From assembly GCA_949152475.1 (NCBI GenBank), contig OX424564.1:23062165-23126164 (forward strand): 64,000 nt of DNA, read 5' to 3'. How positions within the stretch are numbered: the stretch's first letter is position 1; each line of letters starts with the position of its first letter. A program made the position numbers and the translations under genes. Below are positions 31,913 to 63,785 of this stretch, one piece after another. The stretch comes from Terebella lapidaria (Eukaryota > Annelida > Polychaeta > Terebellida > Terebellidae). The notes beneath the pieces are model-generated. The model was not told the origin of the DNA. It saw only the letters and a list, made by a program, of their open reading frames with translations, and searched no databases.

Positions 31913-32819
31913 TCAGTTCGTGGCACCAAAATTTTGTATCAGTGATATTTTAAGAAGAGGTTCTGATGAGTGTCCGACTGTACTGTTTGGTGTGCTGAAC
32001 TGTCGTAGCAATGGCAGTGGAGGCCTGGGGATATCACGAACAGTGGCATCGTCTTGGAAATGTTCGGTTGTGACAAGATGGGCGATGGGTATATTGCTGG
32101 GATGTAAGTTGGAGTCCACAAGAAAGACAGTCCTGCGCTGTGAATCTCTGGGTCAATTCCCTGGCGCTTGTCTTTAATTCGACGGTTTTGGAACCACGTT
32201 TTGATCTGGAGTTAGAGGAAATGAATTCGTCTATATTAATGAAATAGACAACAGGTAGAAAAAAAGAAAACAGTAGGCTTATGTCATGAGAAAATTTGGG
32301 ATACGGCCACAGTAATAAATAATCCTACCTGACGATCAGTTAATCCCAGTTTGCTTGCCAGCTGTTTACGCTGTTCTGCTGGAAGATATTTCTGTTTTGT
32401 GTAAGCCGCCTCCAGAACTTCCAACTGATGGTTTGAGAAACATGTTCTTGTTTTCTTCCGTTTAGCAGCTGGTGGACTATCATCGAATAAACAGAAAGAA
32501 TATCACTTAACTATAAATAATACTGAACGAATTGTCATGTACATATATTTAAGTCGATGTAGATAAGTTTGATATCAAAGTCGAAAAAAAAACCAAAAAA
32601 CAAAGCATATAACTTACCAGAAGATGATTATGTCGAGAGTGGTGAACTCACCCGACTGCCGACAGATCCGTCACCGGACTCATCCAGTGTTGGTTGGACA
32701 GTGTTGATGTATTACTGCTGGTCACAATTGTTGGCATCTTCATAATATTTTCGTTTTGTTGATTGATTTGAAACATTAGACAATGGGCGATTGTTCAAAA
32801 TATTCTCAATGATGAACAT
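31913..32819 (-). pseudogene. Homeobox paralogue H1, decayed
   Basis: It has the same three-exon plan as its neighbours: exon 1 32618-32819, exon 2 32329-32483, exon 3 31913-32205. It is broken in several ways. Exon 1 has a TAA after about 35 codons and a second stop near its end (the usual ACAGAA read as ACATAA). The exon 2 acceptor is CG where the relatives have AG. Exon 3 has a frameshift in the proline-rich segment. The homeodomain exon itself is open (RTCFSNHQLEVLEAAYTKQK, KQLASKLGLTDRQ), and exon 3 reads IKTWFQNRRIKDKRQ, with V45I and M54I. The start reads MFIIENIL, close to the FTIENIL of H2 and H9, so it belongs to that subgroup. Confidence 0.85.
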
Positions 32820-32982
32820 GATTCTCAAGTTTCTAACCACAAGCTATTTACAAAATGATAGGAATAACTGGAAAGTTGATGATATTCTGATGGATGCATC
32901 CAGTCAGCTTCTAACTTATATAATTTGCTTGAAGTACCCTTCACACTTCCCCTTGAGAAATCAATTGCTATGTAGTTGTGAA

Positions 32983-33033
32983 GTCAATCAGGCGTGACGG
33001 TCAGAACCCTCATGTCTGGAGGTCTGGCGCCAG
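32983..33033 (-). promoter_or_regulatory. Conserved upstream module of H1
   Basis: GTCAATCAGGCGTGACGG, then CAGAACCCTCATGTCTGGAG, then a CTGGCGCCAG palindrome. It begins 164 bp before the H1 start codon. A TATAAG box (minus strand, 32915-32920) lies between it and the gene. Confidence 0.8.
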
Positions 33034-33912
33034 AGTAGATGTGTGCAGACATAACTTGCCCTGTCCTTTCAGCATGATATGCTTGTGTTGGAGTTTGTGT
33101 GGCATAACAAACCAAGTGTCGCCCATGCCGTTTACTGAGTAAGTAGTGATCTATTCAAATACGCAATCTACACCGGTACTAGTACAGTAAAGGAAAGTGT
33201 AAAACATTTCTGTGGTTTCTTTGTTCTGACACTGAATACTTTAATGAATGCAGAAACGTGATCTGCTACAATAAGATACATTTTGACCTTGAATAATTTG
33301 ATGAATACATAAACGTAATCTAGCAAGATACTACCGAATTATATAATGATGTGTATCTTTCAACATAAGGAATTGCTAGGTTTCATTCGAACCGTGGCTA
33401 TATTACTGGGTTTCATATGTTGTTAACGCATTATTTGTGAATTATACCCCTCATGTCTGGAGAACTAACGCCAGTGTCAGGGAGTATTTTCTATAATACA
33501 CCAATATATGATTGACAAATGAGTCAATAACTGATCAGTTTGTTACAAAGTGGGAACGACAAGTGACTTGTTAATTGTATGTCACCATTCAAATGATGAT
33601 CTCTCTGAGGCATTTACAAAATTATTACATTATATGTAGCTGATAGCTGTTGAAGAAAGCATGGTGCAGGTTTTGAAATAAATGGAGTCACAATATGTTA
33701 TGACCGATGTTACTATTTTACATGTCCTGTTTAAAACAACTCAGAGATACTCATATGCATGGTTCATATTATGATAATATGCATCAGTATTATAGGTAAC
33801 TTCTCAACTGTGTGCTCTTTGTAGCACATGGCAAGTTGTATGAATTCAATAATATACAGGCAAAAAAGAATATAAGTTTGATAAAAAAAACTTGATGATA
33901 TTCTGATGTATG

Positions 33913-34033
33913 TAAACTAAAGTAGTGGAAGGGCGCGAAGCGCCCCAGTGGGGGCCCTTGGGAGGACCCCCACACCCTTGGTTCGGACTCCTTGGAGTCC
34001 CTTCAAGGGTCCTTGGTTTTTTAAAGTGGTTTG
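33913..34033. mobile_element. 121-bp GC-rich insertion with 8-bp target duplication
   Basis: An exact 8-bp repeat GATGTATG flanks it (33905-33912 and 34034-34041). The interior is unusually GC-rich (GGGCGCGAAGCGCCCC), and the ends TAAACTAAAGTAG and CTTTAA..TTTG form an imperfect inverted pair. It interrupts a sequence that, in the H1 upstream region, is continuous (TTGATGATATTCTGATGGATG followed by CATCCAGTCAG). It is a small hAT-like insertion in an orphan promoter. Confidence 0.7.
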
Positions 34034-34126
34034 GATGTATGTATCCAGTCAGCATCTAATTTATATGATTTGTTTAAATGTTTTTCACACTTCCCCGTGG
34101 GAGGTCAATTACTGTGTAGTTATGGA

Positions 34127-34177
34127 GTCAATCAGGCGTGACGGCCAGAACCCTCATGCCTGGAGGTCTGGCGCCAG
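34127..34177 (-). promoter_or_regulatory. Orphan copy of the homeobox upstream module
   Basis: This is a full copy of the module (GTCAATCAGGCGTGACGG ... CTGGCGCCAG) with the downstream TATA-like TTTATATGA, as in H1 and H2. No exon 1 follows at the expected distance; the sequence there is only a degraded leader interrupted by the 121-bp insertion. It is the promoter of a gene that has been lost, or a product of partial duplication. Confidence 0.75.
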
Positions 34178-36000
34178 TGTCGGTGTATGCAGACATAACT
34201 TGCCCTGTCCTTTCAGCATGATATGTTTGAACAGGAGTTTGTGTGGCATAAGAAACTCAGTGCCGCCCATGTAGTTTACTGAGTAGTTAAACATGCATTG
34301 ATATATACAAATGTATAATAATAAATCTCTAGGTTGCTGATATTTTTCCACGACAGAAAAACGGTCCTTGGTCAGCTGAATTATTTCTCCAATACACAAA
34401 TTTGGCTAAGTTGTGTCTCTCCTGTTTATTTGCAATGCTTTATTCACATTCGAAACTGGCGTTTCTGAAAAGTGTAGCCAAACAATTAAATTGATATTCA
34501 CCAAAAGTTCCAAGGACGATACGAATTGGATGTGAATCCGATTTTTTTTTTATATTAGAGTGATATTTTAGCTATATAATTTTCATGAACCATTGTTGAC
34601 CTGTGAAACAATTTACGTCTCTGTGTCTTCTTGCAAAAGTAATTTAATGTGCCACATGCTACGAGATGGGCTCAGATCAAATCCTAATGGAACAAAAATA
34701 GTTTTTACCCTAATGTAACTCGAAATGTCATGTATCATGCAAATCTATTTTAGATGTTAACGGAAACAAGCAAATCTTGAGGGCATTTTTTCGACAATTG
34801 AATTATGTGATGGGGAATGTTTGAAGCACAAACATCATGTTATCTTACATCAAATTCTGTAACACGAAAGCAAGGGCAGCTCATTTACACATCAGTGTGT
34901 TTGTAGATAGATGTATAATCGCTCATATGATTGAGCACTTTATATGCAGCTCATACTCTGATTTTTCCAACTTGTTTATTTCGTTTTTTTGCTGGTATTT
35001 GTGTATGGTATTATAACCCGTCATACTTCACTTGGGAGTCAAGCAGCATTTTTTTTCAGTCAAATTTCAGACTTGGCAATTTACTCCAATGTTGAATTTC
35101 AGTCCAGATTGGAATCTCGGGAATCTGAACATATTTGGGGATTTGGGTCGATTTACATCCATCAGGATTCGGACTATTGTTATAATTTTGGACCAGGAGA
35201 CATATGGGCCACTGAAAATGCAGGCAAATGCAACAAGGTAAAGTCTGACAAGTTATAACTGGACTCCCAGGTGAAGAATGACAAGTTATAATAAAATGTC
35301 ATAATAAATGAATGAGAAAAGTATACAGCTACCTTCTTTCGTACATGCCGGAAATGTCAGCCACAAATTGAACTATTTATCATTTAAAAACATAACATCC
35401 ATCTCCAACACAGTGTTACAATAAACGTCCTCCTAACGCGGCATATCTTCATGTCATGCAAATAATTGACAAGTCACTTATAGTTCACACTTTGACGAAA
35501 ACTGATGAATCATTAACCCCATCATTGATTGATGCGTTATGGATTACAGCCACTGACCATGGCACCGGTATTTCATACATGAGAATTCTAGCGGTCACGA
35601 CTGATTGACCACACAATACAAGAACATCTGTTGCGAAATCGATGAAAGATATGTATCATGTGCAGTTTTGAGTGTGTGAATTTGTATATTTGGAATATAA
35701 TTCATTCTGACCAAAATGAAATGATATTTTCGTTTGTCATGGTCCATCAGAAAATATTAGCAACCTAGATTTAGTTGTAGTTTGTTGAGGCTACTTTGAA
35801 GTTGGTGCAATGCATCAAATGTAGAATGTTATACATCGTAATGAACAAAATATATACTTGATTTTTTTTATTTTTTTCACAACACACTAAACAGTTACAT
35901 CCATAGACACAAATGGTATAATTCACAGTTCATGAATGACAATATCACAAGCACCAGTGTGGCAAAACCATAGTCAAAGGAGACACTACGAAACAATAAT

Positions 36001-36964
36001 TCAGCTCGTGACACCAAAGTTGTGTATGGGTGATATTTTGAGAAGAAATTCTGAGGAGTGCCCGAGAGTACTGTTTGGTGTGCTGAACTGTCCCATCACT
36101 GGCAGTGAAGGGGGTATCACGAACAGTGGCGTCGTCTTGGAAACGTTCAGTTGTGACGAGATGGGCGATGGGTATATTGTTGGGATGTAGGTTGGAGTCC
36201 CCAAGAAAGACATTCCTGTGCTGTGAATTTCTGGATTAATTCCCTGGCGCTTGTCCTTCATTCGACGGTTTTGGAACCACGTTTTGACCTGAAATGAGAG
36301 AAATACAGTCCACTACAATTTGCAAAGAAACAATAGGTAGAAAAATATTTTTTTTTGTAATGAGAAAAGTTGGGATACGGTTATGTTTCTGAATTATCTT
36401 ACCTGACGATCAGTCAATCCCAGTTTGCTTGCCAGCTGTTTACGTTGGTTTGCTTGAAAATATTTCTGTTTTGTGTAAGCCGCCTCCAGACCTTCCAATT
36501 GGTGGTTGGAGAAACATGTTCTTGTTTTCTTTCGTTTAGCAGCTGGTGGACTGTCATCTGATAAACAGAAAATAGTTAACATCTTTTAAATAGAAATATA
36601 AATCTTCATGTAAATATTTGAGTCCATGTGAATAAGTTTGATATTCAATCTGCAAAAATAGGCAAAACAAACATATAATTTACCAGAAGATGATTCTGTC
36701 GAGAGTGGAGAACTTGCCCGACTGCTGACAGATCCGTCATTGGACTCGTCTGGACTGGGGAAGATTCTCCCGAAGCCAGAAAAGTTTAAATCTGGATGAA
36801 CTTGTATTCTTGTTGCAAGTGACAAATTGCATGTTCGGTTGGACAGTGTTGATATAATCATGTTTGTCACAATTGTTGGCATCATCAGAATATTTCCGTT
36901 TTGTTGATTGATTTGAGATTTTAAACAGTGGACGATTGTTCAATATATTCTCAATGGTGAACAT
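36001..36964 (-). CDS. Homeobox paralogue H2, intact except for a one-base frameshift in exon 1
   Basis: Exon 1 is 36684-36964, exon 2 36403-36557 and exon 3 36001-36288, all with consensus splice sites. Exon 2 encodes homeodomain residues 1-44 (KTRTCFSNHQLEGLEAAY, LASKLGLTDRQ). Exon 3 encodes VKTWFQNRRMKDKRQG and the conserved Pro-rich C-terminus. Exon 1 starts MFTIENILNNRPLFK and should end in the shared FSGFGRIFPSPDESNDGS and SSPLSTESSSG segment, but its length is 281 bp (3n+2) where intact copies are 3n+1. The extra base lies in CAACAAGAATAC (the H9 copy has CAACAGAATAC) at about residue 53. It is probably a young pseudogene, although a sequencing error would give the same picture. The upstream module and TATA box are intact. 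Confidence 0.8.
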
Positions 36965-37124
36965 GATTCGCAATTTTCTAGGCACAAGCTATTTACCAAA
37001 TGATTTGAACAACTGGAAAGTTGATGTTATTCTGGTGTATGCATAATGTCAGCATCCAATTTATATCATTTGCTTAAAATGTTTTTCACACTTTTAAAGA
37101 GGTCAATTACTGTGTAGTTATGGA

Positions 37125-37175
37125 GTCAATCAGGTGTGACGGTCAGAACCCTCATGTCTGGAGGTCTGGCGCCAG
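37125..37175 (-). promoter_or_regulatory. Conserved upstream module and TATA box of H2
   Basis: GTCAATCAGGTGTGACGG through GTCTGGCGCCAG, 161 bp before the start codon. A TATAAA box (minus strand, 37060-37065) is about 96 bp before the start codon. A weaker half copy (GATATCTGGAG, CTGGCGCCAGCG) is at about 37765-37792. Confidence 0.85.
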
Positions 37176-38642: not shown

Positions 38643-39599
38643 TTAATCCGTGGCACCACAGTTTGGTGTTGATGATATTTTCATAAGCAGTTCTGAGGAG
38701 TGTCCGAGTGTACTGTTTGGTGTGCTGAACTGTCCTATCACTGGTAGTGGAGGGGATGTGATGAAAAGTGGCGTCGTCTTGGAAACGTTCAGTTGTGACG
38801 ACATAGGCGATGGGTATGTTGCTGGGATGTAGGTTGGAGTCCCCAAGAAAGACAATCCTGCGCTGTGAATCTCTGGATCAATTCCCTGGCGCTTATCCTT
38901 CATTCGTCGGTTTTGGAACCATGTTTTGACCTGAATTTGAATCAACAAAGAATATAAGTCTCATATCATAATTATCTGAATTAATTGTTTCCTTCATAAA
39001 AATGGCATTGCATTGTATTCTGTTCACAAGGAGTATGTGCAAATGTTTTCTCCTAAAAGTAGTATTCTTACCTGACGATCAGTCAATCCTAGTCTGCTTG
39101 CCAGCTGTTTCCGTTTTGCGGTTTGTAGATATTTCTGTTTCGTGTAAGTCGCCTCCAGACCTTCCAGCTGTTGATTGGAGAAACATGTTATTGATTTCTT
39201 CCGTTTGACAGTTGGTGGACTGTCATCTATAAATGATAAAATAGAGTCAGTACAAATTCAATGAAGTTACATGACAACATAGTTGTGCTGTGCTGTAGAT
39301 ACTGCTCATTAATGTAGTATTCTAGAATATTTTTGTATTAGTTCCTTACCAGAAGATGACTCTGTGGAGATCGAAGAGTTTGCCCAGTTGCTGACGGATC
39401 CGTCACTGGAGTCATCTAGGCTGGGAAAGATTCTTTCAAACACAGAAACATTCAGCTCGACAGTAGGTTTGGTAACACAAAGAAACATATCCCGCGATGA
39501 ATCGTTATGTTTTATAACTGGCCCATCATCATCTGAACGATGGCGTTTCTGTGCCTTTGACAGAGGTCGATTATTTAGGATATTATCAATGGTAAACAT
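38643..39599 (-). CDS. Homeobox paralogue H3, intact (230 aa)
   Basis: This is a divergent ANTP-class homeodomain protein, a predicted nuclear DNA-binding repressor. Exons are 39350-39599, 39072-39226 and 38643-38930; the phases (1, 0) and lengths are consistent. Exon 1 starts MFTIDNILNNRPLSK, where FTIDNIL matches the Groucho-binding eh1 pattern FxIxxIL. It then has a basic RKRHRS-like stretch (here QKRHRSDDD) and the FERIFPSLDDSSDGS motif. The homeodomain (ITCFSNQQLEGLEATYTKQK ... RQVKTWFQNRRMKDKR) retains L16, W48, F49, N51 and R53, with Y20 in place of F. Its N-terminal arm reads KKSIT rather than KKART, losing R5, a minor-groove contact in most homeodomains. A poly(A) signal on the minus strand lies at 38517-38522. 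Unlike its relatives it lacks a recognisable TATA box. Confidence 0.88.
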
Positions 39600-42379: not shown

Positions 42380-43335
42380 TCAGTCCTTGGCACCAAAGTT
42401 TGGTGTTGATGATATTCTCATGAGCAGTTGTGAGGAGTGTCCGAGTGTCCTGTTTGGTGTGTTGAACTGTCCTATCACTGGCAGTGGAGGTGGTAAGATG
42501 AACAGTGGAGTCGTTTTGGAAGTGTTTGGTTGTGACGAGATGGGCGATGGGTATGTTTCTGGGATGTAGGTTGGAGTGCCCAAGAATGACAATCCTGTGC
42601 TGTGAATCTCTGGATCAATTCCCTGGCGCTTGTCTTTCATTCGTCGGTTTTGGAACCACGTTTTGACCTGAATTTTGAATAAGAATGTGAGTCACATATC
42701 ATAATCATAATAAAACGAGTACATTGTTTCCTTCGTAAAAAATGGCAAGTTGCAGTATATATTCTTACCTGACGATCAGTCAATCCCAGTCTGCTCGCCA
42801 GCTGTTTCCGTTGTGCGGTTTGCAAATATTTCTGTTTTGTATAAGCTGCCTCCAGATCTTCCAGCTGTTGGTTGGAGAAACAAGTCCTTGCTTTCTTCCG
42901 TTTGGCAGCCGGGGGACTGTCATCTGTGGACAATGAAAGTGGTCAAAACGAATATTATAACAGGGTACACGATAACATTGTTATGCTGTGCTATAGATAC
43001 TGATTATCAATTTAGTATTCAAGAACATTTTTTTAAATTAGTCGCTTACCAGAAGATGATCCTGCCGAGATTGAAGTGTTTGTCCAGCTGCTGACGGATC
43101 CGTCACTGGAGTCATCTAGGCTGGGGAATGTTCTCTCAAACCCAGAAACATTCAGCTCGACAGTTGGTATTGCAGTACAAAGACACTTCTCTCGTGATGC
43201 ATTATCAAGTCTAAAAATAGGCCCATCATCTTCTGAACGATGACGTTTTCGTGTTTGATTTGACGCCGTGTTTGATTGACGATTTGATGCCTTGGACACA
43301 GGTCGATTATTTAAGATATTATCTATGGTAAACAT
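42380..43335 (-). CDS. Homeobox paralogue H4, intact (242 aa)
   Basis: Exons are 43050-43335, 42769-42923 and 42380-42667, with consensus splice sites and consistent phases. Exon 1 begins MFTIDNILNNRPVSK (eh1-like), carries an insertion relative to H5 (an extra SNRQSNTA-type segment that looks like a local duplication of ASNQT), and a basic RKRHRSEDDGP stretch. It ends in FERTFPSLDDSSDGSVSS. The homeodomain reads ARTCFSNQQLEDLEAAYTKQ ... LASRLGLTDRQ / VKTWFQNRRMKDKRQG. The C-terminus is the family's Pro/Ser-rich segment (LGTPTYIPETYPSPISSQPN). The TATA box is at 43426-43431 and the poly(A) signal at 42249-42254, both minus strand. It is a close relative of H5 and H3. Confidence 0.9.
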
Positions 43336-44774: not shown

Positions 44775-45815
44775 TACGGAAGCGTATTAGGGCCACATGA
44801 CTTTTTTTTTCAATTCAATTTGTCGACTTACTATCTCGATAAATCGAGATATTATCTCGATAAATCGACTTATTATCTCGATAAATCGCCTTATTATCTC
44901 GATAAATCGAGATATTATCTCGATTAAATCGAGATATTATCTCGATAAATCGACTTAATTATCTCGATAAATCGAGTTATTATCTCGATAAATCGAGTTA
45001 TTTTCTCGATAAATTGACTTATTATCTCGATAAATCGAGATGTTATCGCGATAAATCGAGATATTATCTCGATAAATCGACTTAATTATCTCGATTTATC
45101 GAGTTATTATCTCGATAAATCGAGTTAGTTATCTCGATAAATCGACTTATGTCTTAGGCATTTAAAGTTCAAATAAAATGGAAATATGTTTAGTCACATT
45201 ATTCATATGTCGAATAGGCTTATGATGGACCATTATAACGTTAAATATTGAATAATACAGACAAAACTACCTAGTTAAAACTATAATGAAGTTACTATAT
45301 CACTATCTTTTATAAAGATGCAACATGTTCATCAATGAAAATGTTATAATTTTCTTTAACAATTCTTTAGCTATTAGACATGGATTGAGGTATATTCGTA
45401 AATTTATCTGTAACGGCTTCTTCAATTGTATAGTTTGCTATTATTTCAGAGATTAATGTTATGACTGATAATCATTTACTCCATATAGTTTTCAATATTA
45501 GTAATCAGTATATTTTATTTGTCCTATTGTTGCCAAGGTAACCAATGAAATGGTATGGCTCGCCTATGGTCGATGCATATTCATTTTACTTGTACTTTAC
45601 ATGTCTGAGTTCTAAGATGATTTATCGAGATACTATCTCGATTTATCGAGATAATATCTCGATAAATCGACTTAATATCTCGATTTATCGAGATAATATC
45701 TCGATTTATCGAGATATTAAGTCGATTTATCGAGATAACTAACTCAATTTATCGAGATAATAAGTCGATAAATTGAACTTTAAAAAAACTCATGTGGCCC
45801 TAATACGCTTCCGTA
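44775..45815. mobile_element. Nested element with arrays of an ATCTCGATAAATCGA repeat
   Basis: The inverted ends TACGGAAGCGTATTAGGGCC and GGCCCTAATACGCTTCCGTA are flanked by the 7-bp repeat GTGCATG (44768-44774 and 45816-45822). Just inside the left end is a ~330-bp tandem array of a 16-bp unit of the TATCTCGATAAATCGA type (about 44822-45150). Just inside the right end is a shorter, inverted array (about 45618-45775). The interior is non-coding. Arrays next to each TIR are typical of transposase-binding subterminal repeats. Confidence 0.8.
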
Positions 45816-48644: not shown

Positions 48645-49576
48645 TCAGTCCTTGGCACCAAAGTTTGGTGTTGATGATATTTTCATGAGCAGTTGTGAGG
48701 AGTGTCCGAGTGTACTGTTTGGTGTGGTGAACTGTCCTATCACTGGCAGTGGAGGTGGTAAGATAAATAGTGGAGTCGTTTTGGAAGTGTTTGGTTGTGA
48801 CGAGATGGGCGATGGGTATGTTGCTGGGATGTAGGTTGGAGTCCCCAAGAAAGACAATCCTGCGCTGTGAATCTCTGGGTCAATTCCCTGGCGCTTGTCT
48901 TTCATTCGTCGGTTTTGGAACCACGTTTTGACCTGAATTTGAAATGAGAATGTGAGTCACATATCATAATCATAATAAAACGAGTACATTGTTTTCTCCG
49001 TAAAAAAATGGCAAGTTGCAATATATATTCTTACCTGACGATCAGTCAATCCCAGTCTGCTCGCCAGCTGTTTCCGTTGTGCGGTTTGCAGATATTTCTG
49101 TTTTGTGTAAGCCGCCTCCAGATCTTCCAGCTGTTGGTTGGAGAAACAGGTCCTTGCTTTCTTCTGTTTGGCAGCCGGGGGACTGTCATCTGTGGACAAT
49201 GAAAGTGGTCAAATCAAATATTATAGCAGGGTACACGATAACATTGTTGTGCTGTGCTATAGATACTGATTATCAATTTAGTATTTTAGAACATTTCTTT
49301 AGTTAGTCGCTTACCAGAAGAAGAGTCTGTCGAGATCGAAGTGTTTGCCCGGCTGCTGACGGATCCATCACTGGAGTCATCTAGGCTGGGGAATATTCTC
49401 TCAAACCCAGAAACATTCAGCTCGACAGTTGGTTCTGCAGTACAAAGACACTGCTCCCGTGATGTATTATCAAGTCTAATAATAGGCCCATCATCTTCTG
49501 AACGATGACGTTTTCTTGTTTGATTTGATGCCTTGGACAGAGGTCGATTATTTAGGATATTATCTATGGTAAACAT
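48645..49576 (-). CDS. Homeobox paralogue H5, intact (234 aa)
   Basis: Exons are 49315-49576, 49035-49189 and 48645-48932. It begins MFTIDNILNNRPLSKASNQ, then has RKRHRSEDDGPIIR and FERIFPSLDDSSDGSVSSR. The homeodomain is nearly identical to H4, but the N-terminal arm is KQKKARTCF where H4 has KRKKARTCF. Intron 2 falls between Q44 and V45 as in all copies, a position known in several NK-like homeobox families. The C-terminus is LGTPTYIPATYPSPISSQPN and a Pro-rich ILPPPLPVIGQF. The TATA box is at 49663-49668 and the poly(A) signal at 48514-48519 (minus strand). It is the last minus-strand member; H6 diverges from it about 1.5 kb away. Confidence 0.9.
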
Positions 49577-49713
49577 GACTGTGTTCTTAGATTTTTTCAG
49601 ATCTTGATGTAACTCCAGTGATATCAGTGGATACTCTAATGGACCGAGCTATGTGTACCCTGTTTATATTCCTTGATTCGTTCAATTAACCGTTGCCTCA
49701 TTCATTATATGGC

Positions 49714-49762
49714 GTCAATCACCCGTGACGTTGCGAACCCTTATGTCTACAGGAACGGCGCC
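49714..49762 (-). promoter_or_regulatory. Conserved upstream module of H5
   Basis: GTCAATCACCCGTGACGTTG, GAACCCTTATGTCTACAGG, AACGGCGCC, 138 bp before the start codon. Confidence 0.85.
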
Positions 49763-50864
49763 TAAAGTTGGTGTTTTGTCTTCAACGACGTCTCACATGT
49801 TGACAAATTGTTTGTTTTGTCGTGAGTGTGAAAGTCGGGGATGCAACTGGGCAACTCACGATTTTGTTATGTGTTCCCAGTGGGTATTTTACACGGTAGA
49901 TTGCGCTGTCAATTATGAGCTGATTCCGTGAATACTTGAGTTAAAATAAGCAACAGCTAATAACTTTGACCATTCAACTCAATGATCCACACATTCCGCC
50001 ATGATAATCATTGTAAAGAAAAATGAATGTCATATAATTGAATTACTGTCAAATGATCTGCACCAGAAATATTTTTCATGCATCTATTGTCTATTATTTA
50101 GGCATTCAAATACGCTAATAAAAAATCATGGATACTTTTTTTTCGTCAATTCTAAATTTGCTAATGACCTGATTTACTGAATAAATGAAAGTGATTTACT
50201 TAATATATCAAGAGGAGGTGATTATTTTCGAAAAATTGTCAGGACGGAAAAGCAAAATAATCAATGATCATTTTAATGTTTAAAGTTATATGTAACTGAT
50301 CAGACACAGGGTTAGCTTGTGTCTAGGGCCACAGTTGATTGACCGCGTATACTGGTTTGCATTCAATTGCAATCAGAGAATCAAAACAGGAAAAGGTTTT
50401 TTTTGAAAAGCATGAAAATCATTTCTCCAATGGGATTCTGGTGAACACTTATTGTGCAACTGGGAACACTTGTTTTAATAAAAGAATTTAGAATCTATCA
50501 TAAATATAAAAAGTTATCAAATTCATGTTATCATCATTGTATTTTGAAGAGATTATAATGGAGTTTATCGCTTTTTCAATGCTGATTACTAGTATGTCAC
50601 GGGAACGATAATAATTAGGAGTCTCAATCATTCAATACGGCTTCGTTTAGGTGACTCATTATTAGGTTGGGGAATCGGAATTATATTTGACAGCTGATAT
50701 TGTGTATACTCATAGTGACATGTCATACACTGTGACTGTAATATCACCAGAATTTTTGCGCATCAGACATAGTACCAAGAATACCCACATCATTTCACAC
50801 GTTCAGCAAAACAAACAATTTGGGCAAGGTGTGAGACGTTCGAAATGGACAAACACCAACACTG
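49763..50864. other. Divergence point of the cluster between H5 and H6
   Basis: No coding sequence is supported. This is the only head-to-head junction of the cluster and separates the minus-strand from the plus-strand members. AT-rich; no mobile element recognised. Confidence 0.5.
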
Positions 50865-50904
50865 GGCGCCAGTTCTGCAGACACGACCATCACGGGTGAT
50901 TGAT
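50865..50904 (+). promoter_or_regulatory. Conserved upstream module of H6
   Basis: GGCGCCAGTTCTGCAGACA, then CGACCATCACGGGTGATTGA, the reverse of the minus-strand modules. It ends 160 bp before the start codon. A TATATAAA box lies at 50975-50982. Confidence 0.85.
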
Positions 50905-51063
50905 TTCATAATAAGACAACACGGCACTGAGCATCCAATCGTATTGCGAGTGATCAAGCGAGGAGACAAAATCGTATATAAAGGAACAGCCGACTGTCAC
51001 ATTCATCATCTACTGATTTGTCGCAAATCTGAGAAATATTTCCAAGCACCTAGAGCCATCAGC

Positions 51064-52015
51064 ATGTTTACCATCGACAATATTTTGAACGACAGGCCCT
51101 TGTCGAAATTGTCAAAAGAAACACGAAAACGACGTCGTTCAGAGGACAATGATTCATCTACGCTCCAACAAATCGAAGCACTTGAAGGACTACCGATTAT
51201 CGCAAAGCCAGCGATCGACCTGAGTATCTCGGGCTTCGAAGGAATCTTTACCAGTCTGGATGAGTCCAGTGATGGATCTTTCAGCAGTCGGGCGAGCTCT
51301 CCACTCTCGACAGAATCATCTTCTGGTCAGTGAAACATCTGTTTAGTCTGTGGAATCTAAACCGCCTATATAACTAGTAACCAAACCACATATACTCTGA
51401 ATTGACAATAACAATTGTAGTATGAAAACGGCAAAATATTAACGGTCATTTCTCTCCTGTTTAGATGACAGTCCCCCTGCTTCCAAAAAGAAGAAAACAA
51501 GAACGTGTTTTTCCAACCACCAGCTGGAAGATCTGGAGGCGGCTTACACAAAACAGAAATATCTGCAAACGGTACAACGGAAACAGCTGGCAAGCAGAAT
51601 GGGATTGACTGACCGCCAGGTAAGAACACAATTTTACCGAGGAGTCATTTTTTACAATCACCTTGTGAACAAACACATTGCAACCTGATATTATATGTGA
51701 CCTACATTCTTTTTAATTCAATTTCAGGTCAAAACGTGGTTCCAGAACCGACGAATGAAGGACAAGCGCCAAGGAATTGATCCAGAGATTCACAGCACAG
51801 GATTGTCTTTCTTGGGGACTCCAACCTACATCCCAGCAACCTACCCATCGCCCATCTCGTCACAACCAAACACTTCCAAGACAACGCCACTGTTCATCAT
51901 ACCCCCTCCACTGCCAGTGATAGGACAGTTCACCACGCCAAACAGTGCACTTGGACACTCCTCAGAACTACTCATGAAAATATCATCAACGCCAAACTGT
52001 AGTGCCACGGACTGA
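51064..52015 (+). CDS. Homeobox paralogue H6, intact (234 aa)
   Basis: Exons are 51064-51325, 51465-51619 and 51728-52015. The exon 1 donor is the weaker GTCAGT. It starts MFTIDNILNDRPLSKLSK (eh1-like), then has RKRRRSEDND and a longer spacer ending ISGFEGIFTSLDESSDGS. The homeodomain reads KTRTCFSNHQLEDLEAAY ... RQVKTWFQNRRMKDKRQ. The frame stays open upstream to an ATG at 50845. That extension covers the conserved module and the TATA box, and relatives start at the MFTIDNIL methionine, so I place the start at 51064. A poly(A) signal AATAAA is at 52122-52127. It groups with H3-H5 in its exon 2 and 3 text. Confidence 0.9.
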
Positions 52016-54040: not shown

Positions 54041-54985
54041 ATGTTCACCATTGACAACATATTGAATGATCGTCCCCTGTCAAGGTGTTCATATCAGTCG
54101 AGGAAAAGAAATCATTCAGATGCCTTTGACAACACTCAACAAAATGAGTCATACGACTTTAGCAATGGATCGTCCCCTGATCTGAATGCTGCTGGATTTG
54201 AGCGAATTTTCCCATGTCTGGATGAGTCCAGTGACGGATCTGTCAGCAGTCGGGCAAGATCACCACTCTCAACAGAATCATCCTCTGGTTAGTAAAATAT
54301 ATGTTTTCCCACCAAATCCTTAAAATGTGAAGTGAAAATAGGAACTTATTTATGTAATTAATAATAATTAATTAATTATGTAATTAATAAATAATTATTT
54401 ATGTTTTCTCTCGCATAGATGACAGTCCACCAGCTGGCAAAAGGAAAAAAGTAAGGACTTGTTTCTCCATCCAACAGTTGGAAGGCCTGGAGGCGTCATA
54501 CAGGAAACAAAAGTATTTGCAAACATTACAGCGTAAACAGCTGGCAAGCAGACTGGGGATGACTGATCGTCAGGTAAGTTAATCATGTTTCAAGTCAATC
54601 TTTCAACAGTTATTATTGTGAACAGAAGATACCATGTTGTATTGCAAATCTTTCAAGTTAAGGACATGATATGATTCATTTCCTTGGTATATTTCAGGTC
54701 AAAACATGGTTCCAAAACCGTAGAATGAAAGACAAGCGCCAAGGAATTGATCCAGAGATTCACAGCACAGTATTGTCTTTCTTGGGGACTCCAACCTACA
54801 TCCCAGAAACATACCCATCGCCCATCTCGTCACAACCGAACGTTTCCAAGACAACGCCACTGTACATCATACCCCCTCCACTGCCAGTGATAAGACAGTT
54901 CACCACACCAAACAGTGCACTCGGACACTCCTCAGAACCTCTCCTCAAAATATCACCCATACAAAACTTTGGCGTCACAAAATGA
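54041..54985 (+). CDS. Homeobox paralogue H7, intact (229 aa)
   Basis: Exons are 54041-54287, 54419-54573 and 54698-54985. Exon 1 starts MFTIDNILNDRPLSRCSYQ, with RKRNHSDAFDNTQQNESYDF and FERIFPCLDESSDGSVSSR. The homeodomain begins KVRTCFSIQQLEGLEASYRK and ends RLGMTDRQ / VKTWFQNRRMKDKR. I10 and the SYRKQK helix-1 end set it and H8 apart from the H3-H6 group. The C-terminus is the common LGTPTYIPETYPSPISSQPN and LLKISPIQNFGVTK. It is one half of a ~3.2-kb tandem duplication with H8. Confidence 0.9.
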
Positions 54986-57176
54986 TTTTTTGTTTGTTTC
55001 ACAGTGTCTCCCTGGACTTTCATTGTGCCACACTGGTGCTTGTTGTATTGTTATTTGTGAAATGTGTATTATATATTTTTGTGTTTATGGATGTTGCTAA
55101 CCGTTTGTTGTGTTGAGGGATTATAAAACTCCAACATCCATATATTATTTCATATTCTGTTCATTGAGACGTATAAATTTCTACGTCTGGTCAAAATCTA
55201 CTGCATCAACAAATTACTAATAAATTATTTCATCCAGACAGCATAAATTATATAAAAAATACCAATTAAAAAACAGAGTCAAAACTGCACAGGGCACATT
55301 GAAACTAAACAATCACATTGATATCCAATTCAATACAAATTGACAATACAATTGTGATGTGTCAAATATATATTTTCACATAACTAACATTTTATATCGA
55401 ACTTCATATTAAATCTGATAGTACACATGGTACACGTGAGCAACTTGTATTCTTGTTAGCCTTTATGTTCTGAAAACCATATAGCTTGCCGCAACTACAA
55501 AATGCACACATTCCAGAAGTTACATAGTTTTAATCCCAACGTATACTACCGTATTGCGAACCATGCATATAAATATACAATGAGTTATCTCTGAGTTATG
55601 TGAAGCAGAACAGGAAGCTACAAATACTAAAGTTCATACTTTTGTTGAAAATTTCATTGAGATATCATTATGAATGAGATTTTCATCTGTGACAAATTTT
55701 GCTGTCAATGTGCACTGCATAATATGCAGTCAGGCACACACGAGTTTGCTACTTTACCTTTGTGTTCCTCATATATCCTTTATATGAGCAGCAACGAAAT
55801 CTGCTGTTTACATAATAAAAAACTGCTAACCAATTTCATCCAGTCTTGGACTCGATTGGCGATCATCAATTGGTGCATTGTAGAAAACAATCACTGACAT
55901 TGGCGCCTGTTCTTCAGATAGGGGTTCTAGCTGTCAGGGCTGATCGACTTCAAAATACAGGAACTAATAATTCCTACTAATTGTATTAATAATAATTACA
56001 TTTATCAAAATAAAAAAAATCACAAAATAATAACTCGGCAATAAAACTCAGCTGTGAGACATGATTTAGTATATGCTTCAACCCAACGAATTGCTAAGTT
56101 ACAATCAAACCGAAGCGATATTATTGGGTTTCATTCCTAGTTAACAGAGCGTATTATTTGAAAATTACAGCCCTAAAAATAAACTAGTAAATTTTGCAGC
56201 AAACGATCTATTATTTTGTGGTCAATCAGTCGTGACAGCTAGAATTCACATTTATGAATGAACGGCTCCAGGGTCAGCGGCTGTCTTCTTTCACGCACCA
56301 ATCAGCGATTGCCAATTGGGTTAATGGCTCATCAATTTTTCGTCAGTGTGAACTACAAGTGATTTGTCAATTGCATGCTTTTTGTGCTTCAAGAATTATA
56401 TTTCATATAATTCTCAGCTGTCTCGGAGTTGGGCCTCGTGATCGAAATTGACAACAGTTGGTTGTTCCCGTTTATATCTATACTTGATTTGCATGATTCA
56501 TGATATTTCAATATAAACCCCTAGGGGTGTGATATCTGACCTTGATACCACTATGTAGTTAATTTGTGATCATGACCTCAGGATTTATAGGAGATAATAC
56601 ACTGATGGCACTCGAACAGATACTGATATCACTTCTCCTGAATCATTGCATCATCTCACACTTACATTGGTGAACAAAACCTACTTTTTCCACTTGGATT
56701 TGACCTGCTCGCATCTCGTAGCACAAGTTATCTAGTTTTTTGAAGACAAGTTATTTAGTTTTTGGAAGAAGACACACAGACTATATGTTTTCGCAGGTCT
56801 ACAATAGTGCATGAAATTTTATATTGCTAAAATATTATTTTCAATAAAATCACATCAAATATGTATTGTCATTGGAACTTCTGGAGAATATCAGATTGAT
56901 TGGTTGCTTACAGTTTTTTTTGAAACGCCAGTTTCAAACATAAATAAAACATTGCAAATAAACAGAAAACGTAATTTAGCCGATCTTGTTTATTGGGGAG
57001 ATAATTCACGGTGACCAAGATTCGTTTCTACATGGTTCATTATAAAATATTAGCAACCTGGGTATGTGTTACTGCATATTTTCATAAATCAAAGCATGTT
57101 TAATATCATACAAACTCCAACACAAATATATGATTCTGAGAGGACAGGGCAAGTTATGTCTCCAAACAACTACTCT
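54986..57176. other. H7 3' flank and H8 upstream region; two distal module copies
   Basis: This region matches 58303-60441 over most of its length. It contains module copies at about 55902-55952 (GGCGCCTGTTCTTCAGATAG, GGGTTCTAGCTGTCAGGGCT, GATCGAC, plus orientation) and 56221-56268 (GTCAATCAGTCGTGACAGCT, minus orientation). No gene is supported. Confidence 0.6.
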
Positions 57177-57225
57177 GGCGCCAGCACTCCAGACATGCGG
57201 GTTCTGAACATCACGCCTGATTGAC
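57177..57225 (+). promoter_or_regulatory. Conserved upstream module of H8
   Basis: GGCGCCAGCACTCCAGACAT, GCGGGTTCTGAACATCACGC, CTGATTGAC, ending 161 bp before the start codon. TATAAAA is at 57284-57290. Confidence 0.85.
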
Positions 57226-57385
57226 TTCATAACTACACAACAGTTAATCACGCACGAAGTGTGAAAACATTCACGATGGTTAATATAAAAACCAAAACGG
57301 TCTTGTTGCATCCATCAGAAAATCATCTGATTTCCACTTGTTTATATCATTTCTTAATAACTTCGTGCCGCAGAACTCGGTCATA

Positions 57386-58302
57386 ATGTTCACCATTGAC
57401 AACATATTGAATGATCGTCCCCTGTCAAAGTGTTCATATCAATCGAGGAAGAGAAGTCATTCAGATGTCTTTGATAACACTCAACAAAATGAGTCATCTG
57501 ACTTTAGCAATGGATCATCCCCGGATCTGAATGTTGCTGGGTTTGAGCGAATTTTCCCCAGTCTGGAGGAGTCAAGTGACGGATCTGTCAGCAGTCGGGC
57601 GAGATCACCACTCTCGACAGAATCATCTTCCGGTTAGTAAAATACATGTTTTCCCATCAAATCCTCAAAGTGTGAAGTGAAAATTGGAACTTATTTATGT
57701 AATTAATAAATAATTATTAATGTTTTTCTCTCGCATAGATGACAGTCCACCAGCTGGCAAGAGGAGAAAAGTACGGACTTGCTTTTCCAACCAACAGTTG
57801 GAAGGTCTGGAGGCGTCATACAGGAAGCAGAAATATTTGCAAACATCACAGCGTAAACAGCTGGCAAGCAGACTGGGGATGACTGATCGTCAGGTAGGTT
57901 ATTCAGTTTTCAACTCAATCTTTCATCATTTATTATTGTGAACAGAAAATATCATGTTGTATTGCGAATCTTTTAAGTCAAGGACATGGTATGATTCATT
58001 TCCTTATATTTCAGGTCAAAACATGGTTCCAAAACCGACGAATGAAGGACAAGCGCCAAGGAATTGATCCAGAGATTCACAGCACGGGGTTGTCTTTTTT
58101 GGGGACTCCAACCTACATCCCAGCAACTTACTCATCGCCCATCTCGTCACAACTGAACGTTTCCAAGACGACACCACTGTTCATCCTACCTCCTCCACTG
58201 CCAGTGATAGGACATTTCACCACACCAAACAGTGCACTCGGACACTCGTCAGAACCTCTCCTCAAAATATCACCCATACAGAACTTTGGCGCCACAAAAT
58301 GA
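57386..58302 (+). CDS. Homeobox paralogue H8, intact (229 aa)
   Basis: Exons are 57386-57632, 57739-57893 and 58015-58302. It is nearly a twin of H7: MFTIDNILNDRPLSKCSYQ, RKRSHSDVFDNTQQNESSDF, FERIFPSLEESSDGSVSSR. The homeodomain is RKVRTCFSNQQLEGLEASYR ... RLGMTDRQ / VKTWFQNRRMKDKR. The C-terminus is LGTPTYIPATYSSPISSQLN and ILPPPLPVIGHFTTPNS. All splice sites are consensus or near it (donor GTTAGT after exon 1, as in H7). AATAAA is at 58438-58443. Confidence 0.9.
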
Positions 58303-60441
58303 TTTTTTGTTTGTTTTACAGTGTCTCCCTGGACTGTCATTGTGCCACACTGGTGCTTGTCGTATTGTTATTTGTGAAATGTGTATTATATATTTTTGTG
58401 TTTATGGATGTTGCTAACCGTTCGTGTGTTGAGGAATAATAAACCCAAACATTCATATATTATTTCATATTCTGTTCATTGAGATGTATAAATTTCTACG
58501 TCTGGTCAAAATCTACTGCATCAACAAACTACTAATAAATTGTGTCATCCAGGTAGCATAAATTATATACAGAAATACCAATTTACAAACAGAGCCAAAA
58601 ATGCACAGGGCACATTGAATCTAAACAATTGCATTGATATCCAATTCAATACAAATTGACAATACAATTGTGATGTGTCAAATATAAATTTTCACAGAAC
58701 TGACATTTTATATCGAACTTCATATTAAATTTGATAGTACACGTGAGCAACTTATATTCTTGTTAGCCTTTATGTTCTGAAAACCATATAGTTTGCCGCA
58801 ACTACGTAATGCACATATTTCAGAAGTTACGTAGTTATAATCCCAACGTATACTACCATATTGCCAACCATGCATATAAATGTGCAATCAGTTATCTCTG
58901 AGTTATGTGAAGCAGAACAGGAAGCTACAAATGCTAAAGTTTATACTAAAGTTTATACTAGAGTTATTTTCATTGAGATATCATTATGGATGTGAATTTC
59001 ATCTGTGACAAATTTTGCTGTCAATGTGCACTGCATAATATGCAGTTCAGGCACACATGAGTTTGTTAACATACCTTTGTGTTTCTCATATATCCTTTAT
59101 ATGAGCAGCAACGAAATCTGCTATTTACGTAAATGAAAAACTGCTAACCGTTTTCACCTCAGTGTCATGCAGTCGACGAATCACTTATAGTTCATACATT
59201 GGCGCAAACTGTTGAGTCTTGGACTCGATTGGCAATCATCGATTGGTGCATTGTTCTTCAGATAGGGGTTCTAGCTGTCAGGACTGATTAACTTCAAAAT
59301 ACAGGAACGAATAATTCCTACTTATTGTACTAATAGTTCTATTTATCAAAATGAAAAATCACAAAATAATCCCGGCAATAAAACTCAGCTGTGAGACATG
59401 ATATAGTATATGCTTCAACCCAGCGAATTGCTAAGTTACAATCAAACCGAAGCGATATGATTGGGTTTCATTCCTAGTTAACAGAGCATATTATTTGAAA
59501 ATTACAGCCCTAAAAATAAACTAGTAAATTTTGCAGCAAACGATCTATTATTTTGTGGTCAATCAGTCGTGACAGCTAGAATTCATATTTATGAATGAAC
59601 GGCGCAGGGTCAGCGGCTGTTTTCTTTCACTCACCAATCAGCGATTGTCAATTGGGCCAATGGCTCATCAATTTGTGTTAGGGTGAACTACAAGTGACTT
59701 GTCAATTGCATGTTTTTTGTGCTTCGAAAATTACCTGTCATATAATTATCAGCTGTCTCGGAGTTGGCCCTCGTGATTGAAATTGACAAGAGTTGGTTGT
59801 TCCCGTTTATAGCTATACTTGATTTGCATGATTCATGATATTTCATTATAAACCCCTATATAATCTGATATCGCCGTTGATACCACTAGTTAATTTGTGA
59901 TCTTGATCTCAGGATTTATAGGAGATAATACACTGATGACCTCGAACAGACACTGATATCACTTCTCCTAAATCATTGCATCATCTCGCACTTACATTGG
60001 TGAAAAAAAAACTTTTTCCACTAGGAATTGACCTGCTCGCATCTCTTAGCATATGGCACGTTATATAGTTTTGGGAAGAAAACACACAGACGTACATTTT
60101 CTTACAGGTCGACAATAGTTCATGACTTTAATAAAATCACATCAAGTATTGTCCTTGGAACTTATGGAGAATATCAAATTGATTGGTTGCTTACAGTTCT
60201 TTAGAAACGTCGTTTTCAAACGTGAAGATAATTCATGCTGACCAAGATTCTTTTCTACATGGTTCATTAGAAAATATTAGCAACCTGGGTATATTTCATT
60301 ACATACTTTCATAGATCACTACACGTTTAATTACTCAGTAAACATTATGGGCGACACTGAGTTTGTTATGCCACACAAACTTCCACACAAACATATCATG
60401 CTGAAAGATCAGGGCAAGTTATGTCTGCAAACACTTACACT
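58303..60441. other. H8 3' flank and H9 upstream region
   Basis: This is the second copy of the non-coding part of the tandem unit. It contains a module copy at 59558-59607 (GTCAATCAGTCGTGACAGCT ... ACGGCGCAGG) and a partial one near 59255-59295. No gene is supported. Confidence 0.6.
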
Positions 60442-60490
60442 GGCGCCAGACCTGCAGACATGAGGGTTCTGGCCGTCACGCCTGATTGAT
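60442..60490 (+). promoter_or_regulatory. Conserved upstream module of H9
   Basis: GGCGCCAGACCTGCAGACAT, GAGGGTTCTGGCCGTCACGC, CTGATTGAT, ending 164 bp before the start codon. TATAAAA is at 60554-60560. The promoter is intact although the gene is broken. Confidence 0.8.
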
Positions 60491-60653
60491 TCAACAACTA
60501 CACAGCAATTGATCTCTCATGGGGAAGTGTGAAAAACATTTTCAAGGAAATGATATAAAATAGATATTGACTATTTGCATGCATCAGAATATCATCACCT
60601 TTCCAGTAGTTCATAACATTCGGTAATAACTCCTGCCTAGAAAATTGCGAATC

Positions 60654-61580
60654 ATGTTCACTATTGAGAATATTTTGGACAAACGTCCATTGCCTAAAGT
60701 TCCAAATCAATCAACAAAACGGATTCTGATGATGCCAACAATTGTGACAAACATGAATATAAAAGCACTGTCCAACTGTACGAGCAATATGTCACTTGCA
60801 ACAGAATACAAGTTTATACAGATTTAAACGTTTCTGGGTTTGACAGAATCCTCCCCAGTCTGGATGAATCCAGTGACGGATCTGTCAGCAGCCAGACGAG
60901 CTCTCCACTGTCGACAGAATCTTCTTCTGGTTAGTAAAGTACCTGTGTCCCCGCCAGATCCGTAAAATTTGAAATGAAGATATGAACTTATTTGCGTAAT
61001 TAATAAATAATTATCAATGTTGTTTTCCTCTCGCATAGATGACAGTCCACCAGCTGGCAAGAGGAAAAAAGTAAGGTGTTGTTTTTCCACTCAACAGTTG
61101 GAAGGTCTGGAGGCGTCATACAGGAAACAGAAGTATTTGCATACATCACAATGTAAAGAGCTGGCAAGCAGATTGGGATTGATCGTCAGGTAAGTCAATA
61201 CGGTTTCAAGTTAACCTTTCAACAGTTATAATGTGAACAAAATATACAATGCTGTATTATGAATCCTTAAAATTGAGGACAGGATATTATTCATTTTCCT
61301 TGTATATATATTTCAGGTCAAAACATGGTTCCAGAACCGACGAATGAAAGACAAGCGCCAGGGAATTGATCCAGAGATTCACAGCACGGGGTTGTCTTTT
61401 TTGGGGACTCCAACCTACATCCCAGCAACATACCCATCGCCCATCTCGTCACAACCGAACGTTTCTAAGACGACGCCACTGTTCGTGATACCCCCTCCAC
61501 TACCAGTGATAGGACAGTTCAGCACACCAAACAGTGCACTCGGACACTTGTCAGAACCTCTTCTCAAAATATCACATTGA
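60654..61580 (+). pseudogene. Homeobox paralogue H9, decayed by two 4-bp deletions
   Basis: Exons are 60654-60929, 61039-61189 and 61317-61580. Exon 1 is 276 bp where the frame needs 280: four bases (AAAT) are missing after AACAAAACGG relative to H2. Exon 2 is 151 bp instead of 155: ACTG is missing before ATCGTCAG, at homeodomain residues 41-42. The two losses do not restore the frame. Exon 3 is open but ends early (LGHLSEPLLKISH then stop). It begins MFTIENILDKRPLPK and shares NQSTKR and the NCDKH region with H1 and H2, although it is on the opposite strand at the other end of the cluster. AATAAA is at 61696-61701. Confidence 0.85.
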
Positions 61581-61701
61581 ATACGTTTCATTGGAGAAAA
61601 ATACAATTGCATTTAGAATTGGTGCTTGAAAGGATGCTTCATCTATTATTCAAATAGAGTTGTTTGTTACTGACTATTGGTTGATTGTGTATGTCAATAA
61701 A

Positions 61702-62525
61702 CATTGGTTTTCATTAGATGCGACTTTTGAATGGTCCATGAGATGATCTTCTTTCAGAACTGTGAGGTTGTATATGTACCAGTCAAATCGTCATCGTTCA
61801 TACGGTTATAATAATATTATCAGAGATACATTAAGTGCTTCTATTATAAATATGATTAGACACTTCAAAATTATAGAATACCCAGCCCTGTGCTGTGCTG
61901 TCTTCTATATTCAATGAGGACTAAAAAGGCGACAGTCATATAAAATGGCAACCATTTAGTAGGTGAGAAGTATCAAGGCGCAACGTATGATACCTGGGCC
62001 GGACATGCACCGCCATAAGCCTACATATTATGGCCCATGTGTGATAGGTCACTCCTTCTAAATTCAATGAAATTTGAAAAGGTGCCAAACGGATTAAATG
62101 ACATTCATTCAGTGGGTGAGTATTGGTAGAGTGTGCTACATGGGCCCATATTGTTCGTAGACGAGTACTTTCACAGTAACCAGATGTGATGTGAGCAATG
62201 CATTTTATACACACTACTTAACCTGAAAATGTTGACAGTGAGTACAATTTATCAACGATTTCAGTTTAGCTTTAGTGATGTGTACATTTGCGTTGACTTA
62301 TGAGTATACCACGAGGGTGTATCATGCCCGAGTGGCTTCACACTTTGAAGTGTAAATAGTTGCCGCAATGACTACTCATTTATGACGACACTCAATCAAA
62401 TCGGGGCACTCAAAAGATCAGTCAGCCGCTCAACTGCTCTCGGCTAATGTATAAATCGGACCTTCCCTCGAGGTGTACAGTAAAGAGACGAACGCTTTCG
62501 ATGTATCAAAGTCAGTGATGTCAAA
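61702..62525. other. Between H9 and H10; H10 promoter region
   Basis: No coding sequence is supported. A TATAAA box lies at 62450-62455, 71-76 bp before the H10 start. The ~50-bp module of the other nine genes is not recognisable here; only a loose TCAATCAAATCGGGGC at about 62393 recalls its first part. Confidence 0.55.
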
Positions 62526-63785
62526 ATGTTCACAAAATTTACCATCGAGAACATATTGTGCGATAACGCGCTAGGGAAATCGAAAGAAGTCGACACAAAA
62601 CGGAATGTCTCAGAAAACGGAAACGATAGTATTCCACCAATGAAAATCGCAAAGACAGAAGAAGCGTCTTCATCAAGTTTTTGTCAACTAGAAATGAAAT
62701 CGACTGCGTCGGAGCAAAATGTCTCATCCGTGTTCGTTGCTAATGGTAGGTACCCTTCACATACTAATACATCTACTTTAATAATACACACAATCTCAAA
62801 ACATACACAGATTTCGTAAAACTAAGGTATAAAACACTACTTAAAAGTCTTGCTATACCTTCTGTTGAAACAAACATTATTATTATTATCTCACCAAATC
62901 ACGAATATCACTAGTAAATGTACGAATAAAAAACTCTTGTAGATCTACTACTTTTTCACCCATCTGTTTACTTTGAAGAGTTTTCAACTCTGAGTATTCA
63001 TGTCTGCATCTAATCAAAGGAATATTCCATCATTTATGACAATAAATTTATAGTAATAATTCGACTCCTTTCAGAAAAGAAAAAGAAAACACGCACGTGT
63101 TTTACGCGCGAACAGCTGCACAGTTTGGAAACGACATATGCTAAACGGCGCTACCTACCGGCGAAAGACCGCACACTGCTAGCAGAGTTTCTGGGCTTGT
63201 CTTGTCAACAGGTGCGCAGTCAATTCAATTTTTCTTCTCACACACCAAATTATTGAAAATTCATTCATATTTAATCTATCATAATCTAAAATTATATATG
63301 TAGGCCACAAACATGATCAGTTCCTCCATTAAACGGAGTTCTTAAGTATTTCCCGTTATTTCCAGGTGAAGACCTGGTTTCAGAATCGCCGAATGAAGGA
63401 CAAGCGTCTATGTTTTGGTGTGAGTGGAAATCCCACTGCAGTTTTACCTAACCAGCTGGCTGCGTTCACAACATACTCCACCAATATGGTACAAATTCTC
63501 AACAGATTTTCGAGCTGCACGAGTACCCAGGCCAAGAGTAACCTCGTTGTGCTTGGTCCGTGGGTGCAAGGGTCCCAACCAGTTAAGGACGGTGTTCCAG
63601 TGTCCACGCAACCACCACATGGGGCTCTTCAAGTTGCCGGCAACTTGAATGGATCGAACAAGGCCTTGCAACCACCAGCTACAGCGCCATCTTGTATTTC
63701 CAACGGAAGTACCGGAAATGAGCCTATTTCCGTTCCGTGTGTCTCAGTGGGACAGTTTGTGACAACTGACACCATGCGGTCGTAA
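62526..63785 (+). CDS. Homeobox gene H10, divergent or founder-like member (258 aa)
   Basis: Exons are 62526-62745, 63075-63211 and 63366-63785, with the same intron phases (1 and 0) and the same Q44/V45 intron as its neighbours. The start is MFTKFTIENILCDNAL, with the eh1-like FTIENIL displaced three residues inward. The homeodomain reads KKTRTCFTREQLHSLETTYA, KRRYLPAKDRTLLAEFLGLS, CQQ / VKTWFQNRRMKDKRLCF. T9, E11 and the A29-K30-D31-R32-like segment are closer to ordinary ANTP-class sequences than those of H1-H9. The C-terminus is different and longer, with no LGTPTYIP segment. By its K-T-W-F-Q-N-R-R-M-K helix 3, the eh1 motif and the 44/45 intron it fits the NK-like group, with Vent-like families the nearest I can name. 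That placement is inference. Confidence 0.85.

Follow-up and report, generated by a model that had tools for sequence, protein, structure and literature searches.

A cluster of homeobox genes in the annelid Terebella lapidaria is best explained, with a probability that we put at about 0.7, as a 208-kb tandem array of NKL-type genes in which turnover is still going on. The sequence analysed is a window of 64,000 nucleotides, C11:23062165-23126164 of a 761.6 Mb genome (assembly GCA_949152475.1, contig OX424564.1), which had been predicted from its letters to hold ten homeobox genes, H1-H10 (hereafter the original prediction). The whole cluster, at C11:23,094,080-23,302,416, comprises 23 loci of which 14 are open: H1-H10, one further three-exon gene called F, six open two-exon genes (K genes) and six K-type remnants. 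The K genes, the K-type remnants and F were found in 200 kb read past the window. We set our confidence in this interpretation slightly lower because the homeodomain evidence disagrees about F.

The ten three-exon genes occupy 31.9-63.8 kb of the window, with H1-H5 on the minus strand and H6-H10 on the plus strand, and the two arms diverge across the 1.5 kb separating H5 and H6. In H6 and H10, the two genes scanned, the Pfam Homeodomain model scores 77.5 and 71.9 bits, so far above the cut-off of 22.9 that their homeobox identity is not due to chance. Exon 1 of H1-H9 opens with MFTIDNIL or a near variant (we take FTIDNIL and FSIDNIL to be eh1-type motifs), exon 2 measures 155 bp in eight of these nine genes and 151 bp in H9, and exon 3 carries LGTPTYIP, which reads LWTPTYIP in H1; the homeodomain is interrupted by the second intron between Q44 and V45. 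Open frames and GT-AG splice sites are found in H3-H8 and H10. In H1, exon 1 contains in-frame stops, the exon-2 acceptor reads CG in place of AG and the frame changes in exon 3; H2 is frameshifted in exon 1, and H9 in both exon 1 and exon 2. The lesions are different, so these three copies must have died separately. Start codons, strands, frames and splice sites agree with the layout first described, two opposed arms of five genes parting near 50 kb, with six of H1-H9 and H10 intact and three copies decayed. The ten-gene cluster does lie where it had been placed, although its true extent is at least 23 loci and continues outside the window. In H3, whose frame is intact, homeodomain position 5 is I in place of R, which may alter a DNA contact.

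Five of the six K-type remnants were read in three frames, and the sixth, at about 161.7 kb of the extended sequence, is known from its tblastn match. The remnants at extended positions 166.6, 173.5 and 178.4 kb have the same stop within the homeodomain, and therefore seem to have been duplicated after their death. No further copies were detected by tblastn in the first 31.9 kb of the window, in the 10 kb before it or in the 33.7 kb after F. None of 39 short homeodomain pieces from elsewhere in the genome was family-like: the best match, to an abalone relative, agreed at 24 of 44 residues. These pieces came from listed homeodomain places, mostly ones ending at position 44-46, and four of them (L035, L037, L062 and L067) were compared out of register. 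With 150 of 596 candidates scored, no foreign homeodomain fell on C11 at 11.7-32.9 Mb; the Hox-type genes were on C14, not C11. Within this scope, the array shows no physical linkage to Hox or NK genes. One Hox gene of the same genome (L006) has the peptide KLTGP after its homeodomain, presumably the Lox5 signature, which we take to mark a lophotrochozoan and not a trochozoan as such.

Two genes of the window are mosaics. H9 is a chimera with an H2-like 5' half and an H7/H8-like 3' half: before a break late in exon 1 it has 90 H2-like and 19 H8-like sites, and after it 37 and 129 (0 of 2000 shuffles). In H6, H5-like and H8-like sites number 65 and 67 before the start of exon 2, and 69 and 14 after it (again 0 of 2000 shuffles); exon 2, intron 2 and the immediate downstream sequence are H3-H5-like, and exon 1 and intron 1 are diverged from both arms. 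Since H9 and H6 hold pieces typical of the opposite arm, exchange crosses the arms, unless the arms were rearranged afterwards. When H3-H5 are compared with H7-H8, divergence at third positions is 0.521 in exon 1, 0.291 in exon 2 and 0.205 in exon 3. Codon positions 1 and 2 drop along with it from exon 1 to exon 3, and the identities of introns and flanks show the same block pattern as the exons.

Outside the homeodomain, sequence comparison suggests two lines side by side, one made up of F and H1-H9, the other of H10 and the K genes. The N terminus of F aligns with that of H6 (z 17.3), and its C terminus with H6 (z 4.4) and H8 (z 5.1), values that 0 of 500 shuffles reach; the 155-bp exon 2 is also common to F and the H genes. 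The C terminus of H10 aligns with that of K6 (z 11.2), and the C-terminal alignments F-K6 (z -0.1), K6-H6 (z -1.0) and F-H10 gave nothing. We weighted these longer stretches above the homeodomain and consider tandem and inverted duplication of an F-like gene the most likely origin of H1-H9. This F-like founder replaces the H10-like one of the original prediction, a candidate that we rejected because, outside the homeodomain, H10 goes with K and F with H6 and H8. The local birth-and-death expansion proposed along with it is upheld by monophyletic local copies, births, deaths and conversion.

The top single match of H6 is an amphioxus vent1-like protein (47% identity over 40% of the query). Mollusc matches are named vent1-like, Hox-D3-like and ceh-30-like and have homeodomains ending in KEKR; the vent1-like relatives give three matches each in Pecten and Mizuhopecten. 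KEKR is described as the C-terminal homeodomain motif of ANTP NKL Clade I in Trochozoa (Paps et al. 2015, PMC5322547), and from this motif we infer that the mollusc sequences are Clade I. A first tree was built from 50 of 71 protein matches (four were dropped for a misplaced or partial homeodomain and 17 not entered), nine of the 14 open genes of the array, two PDB sequences and 13 further ones. For a second tree, 14 of these rows were removed and 25 of 28 picks from 90 new matches added, the other three having a truncated homeodomain or none. The nine array genes entered form one clade, with a support of 98 in the first tree and, in the second, 95.7 by the approximate likelihood ratio test (SH-aLRT) and 95 by ultrafast bootstrap (UFBoot). 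This clade groups with the mollusc vent1-like genes ending in KEKR (UFBoot 75 in the first tree, SH-aLRT/UFBoot 81.8/79 in the second). BarH, Barx, Bsx, Hmx and Hlx fall outside the group of F, H, K and mollusc genes in both trees, on a weak backbone, with the exception of one bird 'Bsx' beside vertebrate Vent. In the alignment, an eh1-type motif near the start is common to the array genes, the mollusc genes and amphioxus Vent, and the exon-3 LGTPTYIP is absent from F, K, H10 and the aligned relatives. The array genes are thus probably near the mollusc vent1-like group and close to ANTP NKL Clade I; their tie to chordate Vent appears weak. The NK-like affinity assumed at the outset is supported, and the statement that the homeodomain could not be placed in a named family is not. 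A multi-copy family present in many phyla had been named as the outcome that would speak against a lineage-specific cluster; the result is mixed, as there are relatives in other phyla, with several copies in scallops, yet the nine array genes are monophyletic.

Purifying selection acts on the H genes. The ratio of nonsynonymous to synonymous substitution rates (dN/dS) is 0.15-0.32 in all 15 comparisons among the six intact H genes; the K genes, also compared in 15 pairs, give 0.35-0.79, with the highest values in the youngest. The ratio is below 1 in each of the 30 pairs tested, as expected from the predicted selection on intact copies. The homeodomain is the most constrained part, with a ratio of nonsynonymous to synonymous differences (pN/pS) of 0.13 in H and 0.33 in K. 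In a neutral simulation that covered the nearest branches only and ignored insertions and deletions, the probability of staying stop-free was 5.6e-8 for the six H genes and 5.3e-5 for the six K genes.

A common promoter type, another element of the original prediction, was found for H1-H9. All nine promoters contain GGCGCC-N7-(C/T)AGACA, with GGCGCC starting 186-212 bp before the ATG (186 bp in H5 and 199 bp in H6) and (C/T)AGACA exactly 13 bases on. TGATTGA, presumably a PBX-type site, lies within 45 bases after this block in eight of the nine, H7 having TGGTTGA; a TATA-like box is present at -89 to -103 in all except H3, and TCAGA was seen by eye at the start-site place in six. Within 600 bp upstream, GGCGCC occurs in nine of nine of these H genes, five of six K genes and F, where the rate outside predicts 0.098 per 600 bp; its start is at 251-257 in the five K genes, and F has it twice, at 245 and 442. 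The K6 promoter aligns with those of H8 (z 5.3) and H10 (z 3.6). We take GGCGCC to be a Smad1/5 site and AGAC a Smad4 site, and tentatively suggest from these motifs that the block could receive BMP-Smad input. Vertebrate Ventx genes are described as being under BMP control (PMC8911082); in a paper on BMP in Lingula (PMC13121700), vent1, ventx and vent have 0 whole-word occurrences.

Several results weigh against our interpretation. There is N-terminal similarity between H10 and H6 (z 5.9), and a weak C-terminal one (z 2.3, 13 of 500 shuffles). The homeodomain of F is 67-71% identical to those of K1, K2 and K6 and 60-64% identical to those of H3, H5, H6 and H8, and the homeodomain trees join F to K (48, first tree) or to H10 and K (68.5/76, second tree). 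Deep nodes are weak, with UFBoot values of 74, 73 and 43 at the points of the second tree to which the cnidarian, abalone and vertebrate Vent sequences attach; chordate Vent genes form no clade in either tree, and amphioxus Vent falls with LBX1/NANOG in the first. The homeodomain ends in KEKK in F and K and in KDKR in H and H10, not in the KEKR of Clade I, and we therefore call the genes Clade-I-like and do not file them as Clade I members. Young K pairs have dN/dS values of 0.63-0.79, and the copies simulated had been picked for being intact. GGCGCC is missing upstream of H10 and K1. The promoters of H5 and K6 align no better than chance (z 1.0), nor do those of F and K6 or F and H10, and the F promoter gives z 2.0 against H5, 0.3 against H3, 3.1 against H8 and 2.0 against H6. 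Finally, the promoter blocks were inherited through copying and do not count as independent events.

The array could be neutral copy-number noise, made by local recombination, in which only F, with or without H10, matters and the open copies are merely young. The nine of 23 loci that are dead or remnants and the high ratios of the young K pairs fit this view, as does the mutational driver proposed for moth Shx arrays (PMC9977156). It nevertheless seems unlikely in the face of the low dN/dS of the H pairs, the constraint on both sets of homeodomains and the improbability of so many stop-free frames under neutrality. The genes might also belong to an orphan NKL lineage, neither Vent-like nor Clade-I-like, whose grouping with molluscs would come from shared TWFQNRRMK residues or long branches. 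No sequence outside this genome exceeds 66% identity to the homeodomains of F, K1, H10 and H5, and key deep nodes of the second tree are poorly supported; as the mollusc grouping recurs in both trees and mollusc genes and amphioxus Vent also have an eh1-type motif near the start, we find an orphan lineage rather unlikely. Much less credible is that the low exon-3 divergence stems from a second overlapping reading frame and not from gene conversion. One shifted frame over exon 3 is indeed open for 96-123 codons in H2, H3, H4, H5, H7 and H8, but it is broken within exon 3 in H6 (near its end) and H9, and the exon-3 codon-position profile, about 1:1:2.3, is that of a single coding frame scaled down. 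On this profile, dual coding was rejected as the main cause, and the open shifted frames are probably a by-product of the low divergence there.

Under the preferred reading of a tandem array with ongoing turnover, once the F-like gene had duplicated, its copies and the two arms would have been reshaped through gene conversion and unequal exchange with one another, with three separate deaths. The intact genes would most likely encode short repressors, in which the N-terminal motif (FTIDNIL/FSIDNIL) could recruit the Groucho/TLE co-repressor and a T47/Q50 homeodomain would bind TAAT-like sites; their expression would most likely start from compact promoters with the GGCGCC and AGAC block, which may receive BMP-Smad input. 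Such repressors under BMP input, with a putative embryonic role, are proposed on the pattern of the Xenopus Ventx family (PMC8911082). One could go further and regard the cluster as the spiralian counterpart of the Xenopus Ventx cluster. In that case Vent-type genes would be older than chordates, the BMP-Smad gate would be conserved, and the 14 genes of the array would be dosage-tunable dorsoventral repressors that conversion between the two arms keeps rewriting; we hold this idea to be doubtful.

Homeobox genes and associated features in the window. Coordinates are window positions; exons are given in the order of transcription, and the first base of exon 1 is that of the ATG.
Feature	Position	Strand	Basis
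H1, decayed	31918..32819; exons 32819-32618, 32483-32329, 32205-31918 (homologous extent)	-	gene model
H2, decayed, exon-1 frameshift	36001..36964; exons 36964-36684, 36557-36403, 36288-36001	-	gene model
H3, frame intact	38643..39599; exons 39599-39350, 39226-39072, 38930-38643	-	gene model
H4, intact	42380..43335; exons 43335-43050, 42923-42769, 42667-42380	-	gene model
H5, intact	48645..49576; exons 49576-49315, 49189-49035, 48932-48645	-	gene model
Arm divergence point with H5 and H6 promoters	49577..51063	.	promoter motif comparison
H6, intact	51064..52015; exons 51064-51325, 51465-51619, 51728-52015	+	gene model, block comparison
H7, intact	54041..54985; exons 54041-54287, 54419-54573, 54698-54985	+	gene model
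H8, intact	57386..58302; exons 57386-57632, 57739-57893, 58015-58302	+	gene model
H9, decayed chimera	60654..61580; exons 60654-60929, 61039-61189, 61317-61580	+	gene model, block comparison
H10, intact, C terminus K-related	62526..63785; exons 62526-62745, 63075-63211, 63366-63785	+	gene model
Shifted exon-3 frames	36235-35945, 38877-38563, 42614-42273, 48879-48538	-	open-frame list
Shifted exon-3 frames	54751-55116, 58068-58439	+	open-frame list

Tandem repeats of 21 bp lie between H4 and H5 at 44823-45150 and 45619-45769 (TCGAGTTATTATCTCGATAAA and a related unit). A 452-codon open frame near the array (29511-30869, minus strand) has no Pfam match at E 0.01; its product may be a protein of the PGAP4/TMEM246 type. 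No tRNAs or Rfam families were found in the window. Elsewhere in the genome, C7:15372609-15455155 holds at least 27 homeodomain exons of the same or nearly the same score, many of them spaced at about 2.57 kb on one strand; two copies read RKRDRITYTSEQLDLLEKAFHQTKYPDFEDREKLSAMTNLSTTRIQV and are PRD-like by eye. At C6:10583730-10598386, four open frames of 333, 443, 418 and 418 codons, two per strand, have two homeodomain matches each and may form a lophotrochozoan double-homeobox family.

Homeobox sets are generally stable, and an array that mixes intact, dead and chimeric copies allows one to ask what drives its growth and whether its many copies share one job or divide it. Ventx has been stated to be found only in chordates (PMC6466738, 2019); should the Vent link be true, this claim would need revision and BMP control could be tested outside chordates. 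Among the top matches in the open-licence literature, we found no published array of this kind in a lophotrochozoan. Dense ANTP-class arrays had been called rare in the original prediction, which is overstated: they have precedents in moth Shx and Xenopus Ventx, and up to 165 loci have been published for moths (PMC9977156).

The mollusc vent1-like and Clade I genes resemble the array in their homeodomain grouping, in the eh1-type motif near the start and in the charged residues after M54 (KEKR, KEKK or KDKR). They differ in copy number, with one gene in oyster (PMC5322547) and the three scallop matches per genus against 14 open copies here, and, in the relatives aligned, in lacking the exon-3 motif of H1-H9. 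Chordate Ventx/Vent genes likewise belong to NKL and have an eh1-like motif close to the start, and those of Xenopus form a cluster on one chromosome (PMC8911082); six genes are named there, and the vertebrate genes are known BMP targets, whereas the Terebella array has motif blocks only. The lepidopteran Shx genes (PMC9977156, PMC4207634) are also ANTP-class and form lineage-specific tandem arrays of 7 to 165 loci, but they arose from zen inside the Hox cluster, in contrast to NKL-type genes on another chromosome than the Hox-type genes. The mammalian ETCHbox genes (PMC8208926), which are of the PRD class and eutherian, are described as homeobox copies that have undergone tandem duplication, loss and recurrent gene conversion. 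In the sea anemone Actinernus, ANTP-group-c (PMC10598428) comprises 28 ANTP-class genes specific to the lineage, of which 24 arose through tandem duplication; this cnidarian group is spread over four chromosomes, unlike the single array of Terebella.

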